Shown here one piece after another: positions 16,836 through 20,344 of a DNA stretch of 33,834 bases. The notes below the pieces were generated by a model, which had not been told where the DNA came from, searched no databases, and worked only from the letters and a program-made list of their open reading frames with translations. The DNA is from a virus. Position numbers and translations under genes: made by a program. Each line of letters begins with the position of its first letter. The first letter of the stretch is position 1. The stretch spans positions 1 to 33,834 of IMG/VR virus record IMGVR_UViG_3300005613_000235; one strand, written 5' to 3'.

Positions 16836-17168
16836 ATGGATTTTGAATTAAGAAATGAATTTGAAGATAGAGAATTTAGTCCTGAAATAAAATTATGGAG
16901 GGCTGTTTTGCATAAAGCCTTTGAAGATGTTTTTTATAGCGGATTAGAACGTCCGTTAATCATGCATAAAGATAAAGCGTTTGAGTGGTTTGCAGAAGCA
17001 GATTCTGATTTTGAAGCCGTATGTTATTACGCGCAGTTTGATCCAGGTTACGTACAAAGCACCTTTCATCGAATGATTGACGAAGAACGTATTTATTTTA
17101 GTCAAGGACAAACCGATTATATTTACTGGCGAAAGAATTATTATGATAAAAGATTCAAGCAGTCGTAG
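16836..17168 (+). CDS. Hypothetical phage protein (110 aa)
   Basis: A soluble alpha-helical protein. It contains SPEIKLWRAVLHKAFEDVF and a motif AFEWFAEADSDFEAVCYYA followed by FDPGYVQSTF, a pattern I associate with a widespread small phage protein of unknown function. Reached through the hairpin leader, with GGAG close to the ATG. Its last 26 bp overlap the HNH gene. Starts a likely operon running through the HNH nuclease, methyltransferase and oxygenase genes. Confidence 0.75.
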   Translation: MDFELRNEFEDREFSPEIKLWRAVLHKAFEDVFYSGLERPLIMHKDKAFEWFAEADSDFEAVCYYAQFDPGYVQSTFHRMIDEERIYFSQGQTDYIYWRKNYYDKRFKQS

Positions 17169-17610
17169 ATATTATTACAGACACAAGGATAAGATTTTAG
17201 CTAAAAGACGAAAACGGAGGGCGGAGAACCCAGATCTTTATAAAGAAATAGATCTTAGAAGATTTAGAACTGAGACTCATTGGATTAAAGATATTTATGT
17301 TCGAGCAAAAATTAGAGCTCGGTTATACAAAGTTACTTTTAATTTAACATTCGATCAGATTTTAAAGAGCTGGGAAAAGCATAAAAAGAAATATGGAAAG
17401 CGATGCGCTTATACGAAAAAACCTTTAACCTTTATTCGGGGGACGGGTAAGGTGACTTGGAGTAATATTTCATTAGATCGATTAAGTCCTAACAAAGGTT
17501 ATGTTTTAAAAAATATTGTGTTTTGCACCTCAGAGTTTAATCGCAAAAAAAATGATCTTTCAATAAAAGATTGCAAAGCGATCCTAAGAGTCTATAAAGA
17601 CACCCAATGA
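17143..17610 (+). CDS. HNH-type endonuclease-like protein
   Basis: 155 aa from the ATG at 17143, preferred over the longer open frame from 17077 that lies inside the preceding gene; the N-terminus is a very basic helix (RRYYYRHKDKILAKRRKRR). Further on a Cys (KRCAYTKKPL) is followed by ISLDRLSPNKGYVLKNIVF and an Asn-rich helix (SEFNRKKNDLS). The S-x-DR...GY...N...C pattern is that of phage HNH nucleases related to HNH_5-like forms; the first His is replaced by Asp-Arg, as often seen. It could be a homing-type enzyme, a packaging-associated nicking nuclease, or a restriction enzyme: its TGA overlaps the methyltransferase ATG (ATGA), so the pair is tightly coupled. Confidence 0.75.
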   Translation: MIKDSSSRRYYYRHKDKILAKRRKRRAENPDLYKEIDLRRFRTETHWIKDIYVRAKIRARLYKVTFNLTFDQILKSWEKHKKKYGKRCAYTKKPLTFIRGTGKVTWSNISLDRLSPNKGYVLKNIVFCTSEFNRKKNDLSIKDCKAILRVYKDTQ

Positions 17611-18698
17611 ACCATTTGGATTTATTTAGTGGGATTGGAGGATTTTCAATAGGGTTAGAAAAAGCAGGTTTTACAACAAAAGCGTTTTGTGAAATGGATC
17701 CTTTTTGTAAATTAGTTTTAAAAACTCACTGGAAAGATGTTAAAATATATGACAATATCAAAGAACTTACAGGAGAACAAATTGAAAAAGAAATTGGACC
17801 CATCGATATCATCACAGGAGGATTCCCCTGCCAGCCTTTTTCCGTTGCAGGACAAAAACGAGGCACCGATGACGACCGCTATCTCTGGCCAGAAATGTTT
17901 CGAGTCATTAGAGAAGTCAAACCCCAATTCGTTATTGGCGAAAATGTCAAAGGCCTTATTAACCTCCAAGACGGCATGGTCTTCGAAACTGTGTGCACTG
18001 ACTTGGAAAGTGAAGGATACGAAGTCCGGGCGTTTAATATACCAGCTGCAGGCGTCGGCGCCCCGCACAGACGTGAACGTCTCTGGATTGTGGCTCACTC
18101 CGAACACTATGGACAGCCTGCCTCCAAGAAGCGTCGAGGCGCTCCAGAAACAGTATCAAAACAACAGGAAGGGAAGAACCACTCATTCAACACTGAGAGA
18201 ACAAGTGGTTTATCCACCTCCACAACAAATGTGGCCGACTCCGAGAGCATCAGGCCAAGAGAACCCGGAGAGCTTAATCAAACGCAAAGGAATCCGTCAA
18301 GCAATGCAGCACAATCTAACCGCAGCGGTTCAGATGTGGCCAACACCGAATGCGAGAGATTGGAAAGATTCAGTAAACAAAGTTCCTCCATCGGTGAACA
18401 AGACAAGAGGTTATTCTTTGGGGATGAAGGTAGCGGAAGTTCGGCAACAAGAGCAAAAAATGTTTCCGACTCCAACAGCAAGGGATCACAAAGATTCAGG
18501 ACCCAACACGAATTACGAAAAAGCCAAAGCGAAGAGCAGGTTAGCTGGCCACGCAGGTGGGAGTTTGAACCCAATGTGGGTCGAGTGGCTCATGGGGTAT
18601 CCGGCAGGTCACACCGACTTAGAGGATTGGGAAATGCTATCGTTCCGCAAATCGCGGAAGAAATCGGAAAAGCAATCTTAAAAGCTTGTTATGATTAA
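17607..18698 (+). CDS. dcm: DNA (cytosine-5-)-methyltransferase
   Basis: 363 aa. Motif I DLFSGIGGFSIGL (5-17), motif IV GGFPCQPFSVAG (71-82, catalytic Cys75), motif VI GENVKGL (111-117), motif VIII APHRRERLWIVA (152-163), and motifs IX/X ending GLGNAIVPQIAEEIGKAI at the C-terminus. It transfers a methyl group from AdoMet to C5 of cytosine. The target-recognition region (about residues 165-310) is low-complexity with repeated VADSxSxR-like units (IVAHSEHYG, NVADSESIR, DVANTECER, NVSDSNSKG). Base composition of this part is clearly richer in GC than the flanks. It overlaps the HNH gene by 4 bp and the oxygenase gene by 8 bp. A long +1 frame inside it is described separately. Confidence 0.95.
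   Translation: MNHLDLFSGIGGFSIGLEKAGFTTKAFCEMDPFCKLVLKTHWKDVKIYDNIKELTGEQIEKEIGPIDIITGGFPCQPFSVAGQKRGTDDDRYLWPEMFRVIREVKPQFVIGENVKGLINLQDGMVFETVCTDLESEGYEVRAFNIPAAGVGAPHRRERLWIVAHSEHYGQPASKKRRGAPETVSKQQEGKNHSFNTERTSGLSTSTTNVADSESIRPREPGELNQTQRNPSSNAAQSNRSGSDVANTECERLERFSKQSSSIGEQDKRLFFGDEGSGSSATRAKNVSDSNSKGSQRFRTQHELRKSQSEEQVSWPRRWEFEPNVGRVAHGVSGRSHRLRGLGNAIVPQIAEEIGKAILKACYD
17737..18681 (+). CDS. Overprinted +1-frame ORF inside the methyltransferase (314 codons)
   Basis: A second frame stays open for 945 nt within dcm. Its translation is not random-looking: four units of the type W/F-x-T-P-x-x-x-D occur (LWLTPNTMD, MWPTPRASG, MWPTPNARDWKDS, MFPTPTARDHKDS), and it ends with GSLNPMWVEWLMGYPAGHTDLED. 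From memory, WPTPxARDxKD and LNPxWVEWLMGFPxGWTDL are hallmarks of database proteins annotated near or as cytosine methyltransferases. They arise here from the same bases that encode VADSxSxR and EPNVGRVAHGV in the dcm frame. The ORF lacks a convincing SD and stops 9 nt before the oxygenase ATG. Either both frames are used or the family in databases is a shadow of dcm; see findings. Confidence 0.4.
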   Translation: MLKYMTISKNLQENKLKKKLDPSISSQEDSPASLFPLQDKNEAPMTTAISGQKCFESLEKSNPNSLLAKMSKALLTSKTAWSSKLCALTWKVKDTKSGRLIYQLQASAPRTDVNVSGLWLTPNTMDSLPPRSVEALQKQYQNNRKGRTTHSTLREQVVYPPPQQMWPTPRASGQENPESLIKRKGIRQAMQHNLTAAVQMWPTPNARDWKDSVNKVPPSVNKTRGYSLGMKVAEVRQQEQKMFPTPTARDHKDSGPNTNYEKAKAKSRLAGHAGGSLNPMWVEWLMGYPAGHTDLEDWEMLSFRKSRKKSEKQS

Positions 18699-19191
18699 TC
18701 CTTATTTTTTAAAAACAGGAATTCAATCTAAATTAAAAAATGAACTTCTTGTCAAAGCCGAACACTTTGATCAATGGATCGATTATTTTAATTTTAAACT
18801 TATGCCTGTGGCTTCTGAAATGATTCAAAAAGATTCTTTTCTCAGAGAGTTAAACCAAATACACCCTTTTCACTGCGGAGTAATTTTATTACCTCCAATG
18901 ACTTACTATGACTGGCATGTGGACGATCAAAGAGGCGTTTGTGTGAATGCTTTGCTGAATAGTCATGGCAGAAGTTTTTGTTGTTTTTCAGGAGAAAGTA
19001 TTAAAGTTAGTGGTGCTTTTACTGAATTAAATTATGATGTCGGTGAATATGTGATATTTAATAACCAAATGAGACACTGTGTTTTTAATTTTGATAAAGA
19101 ACGTTATATGTTTACGATAGAGTTTTATGAGAATAAAGAATTGTTAAATTACGAAATGTTGTTAAAAACGTTTTATGAGAAAATTAAATAA
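18691..19191 (+). CDS. 2OG-Fe(II) oxygenase-like protein
   Basis: 166 aa. Iron-binding triad candidates are His76 and Asp78 in YYDWHVDDQRG and His129 in NNQMRHCVFNF, with Arg138 (KERYMFTIEF) positioned to hold 2-oxoglutarate. The HxD...H...R order and spacing fit double-stranded beta-helix oxygenases related to aspartyl/asparaginyl hydroxylases. Substrate unknown: protein, or a modified base given the C5-methyltransferase directly upstream (8-bp overlap). It does not show the TET/JBP signature that I would expect for a known 5mC oxidase. Confidence 0.62.
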   Translation: MINPYFLKTGIQSKLKNELLVKAEHFDQWIDYFNFKLMPVASEMIQKDSFLRELNQIHPFHCGVILLPPMTYYDWHVDDQRGVCVNALLNSHGRSFCCFSGESIKVSGAFTELNYDVGEYVIFNNQMRHCVFNFDKERYMFTIEFYENKELLNYEMLLKTFYEKIK

Positions 19192-19476
19192 ATGGCTGAT
19201 TTAAATAAATTTTTAGAACAATATTATTTTCTAGCTACAAGACTAGATGAAATTAGTGCGTACCCCTTGGATGAAGAAAAGATTTATGATCCTAAAGATA
19301 AACGTAATCAAGCTTGGCATGACGCAAATAACAAACTTTTAAAATTGATCGAAAGCTTTAAACCTGATAAAAGTGCAGAACAACTGGCTATGCATGAATC
19401 TTTAAAAAGATTGAAGAAAAGAATTAAAACGTTATTAAAATCTTATGAAAAAGGAAAACAAAAACACGTCCATTAG
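19192..19476 (+). CDS. Small helical hypothetical protein (94 aa)
   Basis: ATG abuts the previous stop (TAAATG). Acidic helical N-terminus (LNKFLEQYYFLATRLDEI) and a basic C-terminal helix (KRLKKRIKTLLKSYEKGKQK). Likely co-translated with the oxygenase. No family recognised. Confidence 0.68.
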   Translation: MADLNKFLEQYYFLATRLDEISAYPLDEEKIYDPKDKRNQAWHDANNKLLKLIESFKPDKSAEQLAMHESLKRLKKRIKTLLKSYEKGKQKHVH

Positions 19477-19543
19477 CGCTAATGATTTTAAATTATTAGC
19501 AGGAGATACTAAAGAAGGAACTAAGTTTCCAGGAGAACCTGCG

Positions 19544-20344
19544 ATGCGTATCTTATCTTTAGGTGCAGGCGTTCAATCTTCAACGATGGCTTTGATGGCA
19601 GAGGCTGGAGAATTTGGAGTTAAACCTGATGCAGCTATCTTTGCGGATACGGGTTGGGAACCTCCACAAGTTTACGAACATTTAGAATGGTTAAAGACGA
19701 AATTATCTTATCCTGTTTATACGATTCAATACGGAAATATTAGAGAGGATATTGTAAACGCGATGTCGGAGAACGGGAACCGTTTTGCTTCCGCGCCGTT
19801 TTATACTAAAAATCCTGATACCGGGAAGAAAGGAATGCTGCGACGCCAGTGTACGAGAGAATATAAAATTACACCGATTATTAAAAAGACTCGAGAGCTC
19901 ATGGGTGTTGGATTTAGAAAACGTTTTCCAAAAGATAAATGGGTGGAGATGTGGATCGGTATTTCCACGGACGAAATTATGCGTATGAAACCCGCAAGGA
20001 TTTGGTGGCAATGTAATCGTTGGCCTTTGATTGAAAAGAAAATGTCAAGGGATGATTGTTTACAATGGTACGATGGACGCGATTTACGAAGACCCGCAAA
20101 GTCGGCATGTATTGGCTGCCCTTTTCATGATGACGCGTTTTGGGCAGATATGAAAAGAAATCGACCGGATGAATTTAAAGATGCTTGTGAGATTGATGAA
20201 CAAATTCGAAAAGGTAATCACAAGGTTAAGGATAATTTGTATATTCACCGTTCTTGTGTTCCTTTAAAAGAAGTTGTTTTTAAAGAAAAAGAAAAAGAAC
20301 CTGATTTATTTAATTTAGAATGCGAGGGTATGTGCGGTCTTTAG
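19544..20344 (+). CDS. PAPS-reductase/DndC-like PP-loop protein
   Basis: 266 aa from the ATG at 19544, chosen because AGGAG (19531-19535) lies 8 nt upstream and the family typically opens with the PP-loop; an in-frame ATG at 19445 would add 33 residues that overlap the previous gene. The N-terminus is MRILSLGAGVQSSTMAL, a PP-loop variant for ATP binding, followed by FADTGWEP. Cys motifs RRQCTREYK, ACIGCPFHDD and a terminal ECEGMCGL could hold an iron-sulfur cluster. Relatives include PAPS reductases and DndC; in phages the substrate is usually unknown. Context beside methyltransferase and oxygenase genes raises DNA or nucleotide modification, but that is inference. Confidence 0.82.
   Translation: MRILSLGAGVQSSTMALMAEAGEFGVKPDAAIFADTGWEPPQVYEHLEWLKTKLSYPVYTIQYGNIREDIVNAMSENGNRFASAPFYTKNPDTGKKGMLRRQCTREYKITPIIKKTRELMGVGFRKRFPKDKWVEMWIGISTDEIMRMKPARIWWQCNRWPLIEKKMSRDDCLQWYDGRDLRRPAKSACIGCPFHDDAFWADMKRNRPDEFKDACEIDEQIRKGNHKVKDNLYIHRSCVPLKEVVFKEKEKEPDLFNLECEGMCGL

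Follow-up and report, generated by a model that had tools for sequence, protein, structure and literature searches.

The window analysed here, the whole 33,834-base stretch of the IMG/VR record IMGVR_UViG_3300005613_000235, carries genes for a primase, a DNA polymerase, a terminase and a portal protein, and therefore belongs to a tailed phage. On its plus strand, at 17607-18698, lies an ORF (dcm) encoding the 363-aa catalytic chain of a C5-cytosine methyltransferase, termed alpha, which contains motifs I-VIII and X without motif IX and is identified by PF00145, by Foldseek and by its invariant motifs. Within the alpha ORF, on the same strand and in the +1 frame, is nested a second ORF at 17737-18681, which as listed begins with ATG and encodes 314 aa. 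Its product, termed beta, comprises recognition modules and motif IX, and is supported by a match to the PHROG family phrog_1008, by stop depletion and by a codon-position test. The original prediction, made from the sequence alone, had pointed to a +1 frame open for 314 codons inside dcm and to a GC content above that of the surroundings; both observations are borne out, GC being 46-49% in the overlap and 30-33% in the neighbouring regions. Upstream, the stop codon of an HNH / endonuclease VII-like gene (17077-17610, phrog_1035) overlaps the start codon of alpha in an ATGA; this gene is retained chiefly among the closest relatives, at 59-62% identity. Downstream, a 166-aa protein encoded at 18691-19191 overlaps the end of alpha by 8 nt. 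Its pattern YYDWHVDD ... MRHCVFN, judged by eye, resembles that of a 2OG-Fe(II) oxygenase. The protein matches phrog_274 weakly, is 72% identical in two of the retrieved loci (L001 and L010) and has no convincing PDB relative; it is possibly a methylcytosine modifier. Beside the methyltransferase, a PAPS-reductase-like gene is also located at 19445-20344, a relative of which was matched 94 times in the retrieved loci, indicating that the pairing is frequent.

Alpha matches PF00145 in Pfam with E 1.1e-51, and the best Foldseek matches of its folded part are M.HaeIII and M.HhaI (E about 1e-14). Along the plus strand are found motif I (DLFSGIGGF, 17619-17645), motif IV with the catalytic Cys75 (FPCQPFS, 17823-17843), motif VI (ENV, 17937-17954), motif VIII (GAPHRRERLWIVA, 18057-18095) and motif X (RLRGLGNAIVPQIAEEI, 18615-18665), and PCQ, ENV and RxR are invariant among 42-47 homologues. 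In the AlphaFold model, residues 1-174 and the motif X helix are mostly confident, and residues 175-341 lie entirely below pLDDT 50. The latter stretch of about 165 residues (18129-18629, plus strand) is predicted to be a disordered read-through of the recognition DNA, and is the source of the VADSxSxR repeats. A single-chain enzyme carries motif IX between motifs VIII and X of one polypeptide, and alpha has no motif IX in that place: its frame there reads EPNVGRVAHGV, and the beta frame reads LNPMWVEWLMGYP. Motif IX occurs only in the +1 frame in 227 loci. Both the VADSxSxR and the EPNVGRVAHGV readings are present in the dcm frame as they had been quoted.

The original prediction had likened the +1 motifs to database proteins annotated around cytosine methyltransferases, and the +1 protein does match phrog_1008 (E 5.9e-31), a family labelled ‘DNA methyltransferase’. 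The motifs quoted for it are also in place, as modules WLTPNTMD, WPTPRASG, WPTPNARDWKD and FPTPTARDHKD followed by the ending LNPMWVEWLMGYPAGHTDLED. No Pfam or NCBIfam model matches beta, a PDB sequence search with a beta profile gave no match, and PF00145 (Pfam) is not matched even by betas that carry both IX and X. The conserved LNPxWVEWLMGYP(xGHT) is motif IX of C5-methyltransferases, located in the window at 18565-18615 on the plus strand (LNPMWVEWLMGYPAGHT), and is aligned without gaps to motif IX of M.HhaI (LHPRECARVMGYP) via a single-frame relative. In that relative, on a Ca. Megaera plasmid (L164), motif IX stands in the alpha frame directly before motif X; its ungapped alignment with M.HhaI 270-314 pairs rLNPDWVEWLMGYPISW with kLHPRECARVMGYPDSY and runs on into GNAVV / GNSVV. 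The motif IX stretch by itself is weak in this alignment (4.8 bits), and the assignment is therefore based on its position, the ungapped register and the adjoining motif X.

Four recognition modules precede motif IX in the window, at 18091-18231 (WLTPNTMD...), 18232-18336 (WPTPRASG...), 18337-18462 (WPTPNARDWKD...) and 18463-18564 (FPTPTARDHKD...), all on the plus strand. Across 240 betas, mostly 2-5 modules (range 0-7) are found between the hairpin and motif IX; they begin with (W/F/L)PTP and are typically 30-47 residues long. It can be observed that similar modules stand at differing ordinal places with differing neighbours, one family appearing at places 1, 2, 3, 4, 5 and 7, with families defined by single linkage and the largest of them over-merged. 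The modules probably read the DNA target, and beta is almost certainly the DNA-recognition half of the methyltransferase. The AlphaFold model of beta alone (mean pLDDT 58, pTM 0.24) displays a fair helix-helix-hairpin (residues 50-107) and, at motif IX, a helix; elsewhere it is poor, which would be in keeping with a chain that needs a partner in order to fold. A Foldseek search with this model returned noise only and no structural relative.

The openness of the +1 frame was compared with chance expectation. The window contains 0 stops in this frame, against a mean of 6.3 in synonymous shuffles of the dcm codons or 9.3 under flanking codon usage, and none of 500 synonymous shuffles reached 0. 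In 89 distinct homologous loci (<95% identical), the interval between motifs IV and X (22,051 codons) contained 3 stops in the +1 frame, where 381 were expected from within-alpha synonymous shuffling and 944 from flanking codon usage. For frame +2 of the same set, 1776 stops were seen and 1813 expected. Such depletion relative to synonymous shuffles implies that the open +1 frame is not due to chance. All 3 stops fall in two distant loci (L159 and L160), whose beta ORFs end past motif IX and upstream of the alpha motif X. Furthermore, every one of the 75 complete loci retrieved with the alpha protein alone has a +1 ORF (the shortest of 237 aa, the longest +2 ORF being 97 aa), so that the openness does not stem from having chosen loci for their similarity to beta. 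The +1 frames of single-chain dcm genes that carry their own motif IX are full of stops, as illustrated by 28, 28 and 12 stops in methyltransferases of this kind from E. coli, Salmonella and Xanthomonas, all plasmid-borne. Homologues with an intact dcm and an interrupted +1 frame would, according to the original prediction, have spoken against a second protein; no intact dcm lacking motif IX was found with its +1 frame broken before motif IX. In each distant pair compared, beta similarity was higher than in any of 100 synonymous shuffles (for a Paenibacillus phage, 232 against a maximum of 101), and past motif VIII distant relatives are more similar in beta than in alpha.

Difference rates at the three codon positions were obtained from 166 codon-aligned pairs, and 4-fold divergence was also calculated in 15-codon bins. 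Before the overlap, the rates at alpha positions 1, 2 and 3 are 0.13, 0.08 and 0.32. Over motifs IV-VIII they become 0.11, 0.05 and 0.17; the recognition region gives 0.33, 0.17 and 0.16, and the surroundings of motif IX give 0.17, 0.08 and 0.08. The fastest-changing position thus shifts from the wobble of alpha (its position 3) to that of beta (alpha position 1). Outside the overlap, alpha 4-fold divergence amounts to about 0.42-0.43; it falls to 0.24 over motifs IV-VIII, to 0.06 across the recognition region and to 0.04 near motif IX. By bin, it ranges over 0.07-0.27 at codons 91-165 and 0.01-0.26 in the recognition region, and is 0.38 again past the end of beta. At motif IX itself it amounts to 0.002 (1242 sites), as against 0.36 at beta 4-fold sites. 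Beta 4-fold divergence is 0.07-0.10 at alpha codons 91-165 and 0.24-0.47 in the recognition region, where, being near the neutral level, it indicates that alpha is hardly constrained. The synonymous-site comparison of both frames that the original prediction had proposed thus revealed excess constraint in the +1 frame. Strong two-frame constraint is confined to about alpha codons 91-165 (17877-18101, plus strand), where beta encodes a helix-hairpin element, LTWKxKxTKSGRLxxQL; past motif VIII, almost only beta is constrained. The VADSxSxR repeats are a shadow, or by-product, of WPTPxARDxK in beta, and not vice versa. Dual coding of the target-recognition region had been among the options foreseen: the +1 coding is real, and the direction is reversed, the dcm frame being nearly unconstrained in this region and at motif IX. 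The +1 frame is a selected protein and no artefact.

The start of beta in the window is uncertain, lying at ATG 17737 or ATG 17749, neither with a good site, or at TTG 17782 behind AGGAG. This AGGAG, 6 nt before the TTG, is a candidate internal ribosome-binding site (17771-17784, plus strand) recognized from the sequence and a start scan. Among homologous loci, a Shine-Dalgarno core together with a beta start was found in 49 of 66, compared with 24 expected from shuffles (46 and 19, respectively, with ATG only). This excess, together with the constraint on beta upstream of motif VIII, favours internal initiation over frameshifting.

The position of motif X varies between the two chains. It lies in alpha in 227 loci and in beta, after motif IX, in at least 27, a ratio that is no census of the two arrangements, many scans having been queried with beta. 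In the 27 latter loci, alpha ends 158-203 aa past motif I, about the end of motif VIII; beyond this point 415 stops occur in 5546 alpha-frame codons, where the frame is open in loci with motif X in alpha. The two frames still overlap by at least 111 codons. The beta of a further locus of this type (L203) has two matches, one of residues 8-194 to phrog_1008 and one of residues 219-366 to the canonical methyltransferase family phrog_363. In a tree built from 124 catalytic domains, motif X switches place about 9 times; at least 3 of these changes are forced by starred branches, and many inner branches are weak. Alpha thus stays open through the recognition DNA in the loci where it has to reach motif X, and apparently for that reason.

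Several explanations were weighed for these observations. The original prediction had allowed for a database artefact, the +1 frame being open merely through amino-acid constraint on dcm, codon usage and higher GC. Part of the +1 sequence is indeed forced by motif VIII and the EPNVGRVAHGV region, and the overlap is GC-richer, but hundreds of stops appear when the dcm codons are shuffled with the protein left unchanged, the dcm synonymous sites are nearly frozen while the beta wobble sites are free, beta similarity surpasses that of all shuffles, and the +1 frame is closed in canonical dcm genes. The codon-position test refutes this option, which is virtually inconceivable. A programmed +1 frameshift near motif VIII, joining the recognition region and motif IX to motifs I-VIII, would account for the usual domain order in the DNA and for one contig (L358) with an in-frame junction of both readings. 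Against it, beta is constrained well upstream of motif VIII, beta start signals are enriched, the frames overlap extensively even where motif X is in beta, and most loci retain motif X in the frame of alpha, implying that full-length alpha is needed. A frameshift-derived isoform, also among the options foreseen, is accordingly very unlikely, since the N-terminal part of beta is under constraint of its own and Shine-Dalgarno plus start signals are in excess.

Alternatively, beta could be a separate overprinted protein with an inhibitory, anti-restriction or regulatory role, and alpha a complete single-chain methyltransferase. That lone beta has no detectable structural relative would suit this explanation; however, alpha is without motif IX, its would-be recognition region is predicted to be disordered and is nearly unconstrained, motif IX is located in beta, and motif X passes between the chains, making the explanation highly improbable. 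The presence of motif IX in beta and its absence from alpha instead point to a split enzyme, and we consider with high confidence that one heterodimeric DNA cytosine-5 methyltransferase is produced from the two nested same-strand frames. Alpha would form the large catalytic domain, consisting of motifs I-VIII with the AdoMet site, the catalytic PCQ, ENV and RxR, a long unstructured linker, and the motif X helix, which would fold back onto motif I. Beta would form the small domain, with the N-terminal helix-hairpin element, the chain of (W/F)PTPxARDxK modules reading the target, and motif IX. The recognition DNA would thus still lie where it usually does, between motifs VIII and X, but be read with a one-base shift; alpha would cross it as a linker, and beta would be started separately by internal initiation. 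Alpha and beta would bind each other and both would be needed for activity, and the phage may use the methylation for escape from host restriction.

Two-chain methyltransferases have precedents. M.EcoHK31I has the site YGGCCR, M.EaeI is a similar system, and the site of M.AquI is CYCGRG. In 1995 Lee reportedly found the small ORF of M.EcoHK31I to lie wholly within the large ORF in another frame, with both products needed in vitro; its small chain is presumably smaller than the beta described here. M.EcoHK31I comprises a large polypeptide with motifs I-VIII, X and a predicted recognition domain and a small one with motif IX alone, and M.AquI is split in the variable region, the larger chain bearing motifs I-VIII and the smaller IX-X (PMC3404938). 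Engineered methyltransferases complement well when the split falls between motif VIII and the recognition domain, and permutants retaining the C-terminal helix on the large domain have been made to this end (PMC5944983). By description, the window locus resembles M.EcoHK31I in having two chains, the large one with I-VIII and X and the small one with motif IX, and in the nesting of the beta ORF within the alpha ORF in another frame. It differs in that constraint places the recognition region in beta, which is built of PTP modules; a large-subunit recognition domain of the M.EcoHK31I type was not found, alpha 175-341 being predicted disordered. M.AquI, with IX-X on the small chain, is closer to the 27 relatives whose beta carries IX and X, but in the window motif X lies in alpha and the genes are nested, and even the AquI-like relatives differ from it in the long overlap and in holding the entire recognition region in beta. 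The canonical single-chain enzymes M.HhaI, M.HaeIII and Dcm (PF00145) share the catalytic motifs, the large-domain fold and the motif order in the DNA, whereas here a second polypeptide, read in a different frame, holds motif IX and the recognition domain. Two small enterobacterial plasmid methyltransferases, considered as possible EcoHK31I relatives, proved to be ordinary single-chain enzymes. The openly accessible papers that were searched yielded no account of the breadth, the domain-wise split of constraint, the modular beta or the motif-X switching; relative to the M.EcoHK31I precedent, the breadth, the modular recognition region in beta and the motif-X switching appear undescribed.

Hundreds of loci share this nested arrangement, ranging from those of marine phages to prophage-like ones in Firmicutes, Bacteroidetes, Proteobacteria, Spirochaetes and further groups. 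When bacterial genomes were scanned by motif alone, 80 loci from many phyla were obtained; 65 are strictly nested, and of the remainder nearly all are either truncated or nested but with variant motifs. A single Roseovarius MAG chromosome (OX638333.1) carries one nested locus in five near-identical copies (L211-L215). On a Paenibacillus bovis plasmid, a second beta-like ORF (L167:2986-3384; WPTP, INPAWIECMMGFPEGWT), annotated as hypothetical and apparently non-overlapped, lies directly downstream of an alpha/beta pair; it has no relatives in viral contigs, and stand-alone beta is thus a single case. In mycobacteriophage records (e.g. MN813697.1 46762-47220), two adjacent ‘DNA methylase’ genes lie under one methyltransferase match and could represent another split enzyme. 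Among public phage records, the +1 frame is entered as a second ‘DNA methyltransferase’ in Leyra and is unannotated in R23.9, and the label of phrog_1008 is silent on a second subunit nested in a phrog_363-type gene. Many records carry one frame only or a generic second name, which leaves the enzyme's recognition half absent or wrongly labelled.

To our knowledge, few long nested same-strand genes are well established in bacteria. Cloning such a ‘dcm’ without regard to the +1 frame, for example by codon-optimising alpha, would destroy beta, and a dead enzyme is predicted. Loci in which motif X has changed frame provide a natural experiment on why the alpha frame stays open. A more tentative proposal, which we regard as quite possible, is that beta is an exchangeable recognition cassette, whose modules of about 35-47 residues, (W/F/L)PTPxARD...L..xV, are gained, lost and shuffled between phages, altering specificity or making it multispecific. 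If so, each module exchange would have to keep the alpha frame open as far as motif X, while moving motif X into beta would free the alpha frame, which then decays, and the nested genes would constitute a widespread two-frame modular specificity system.
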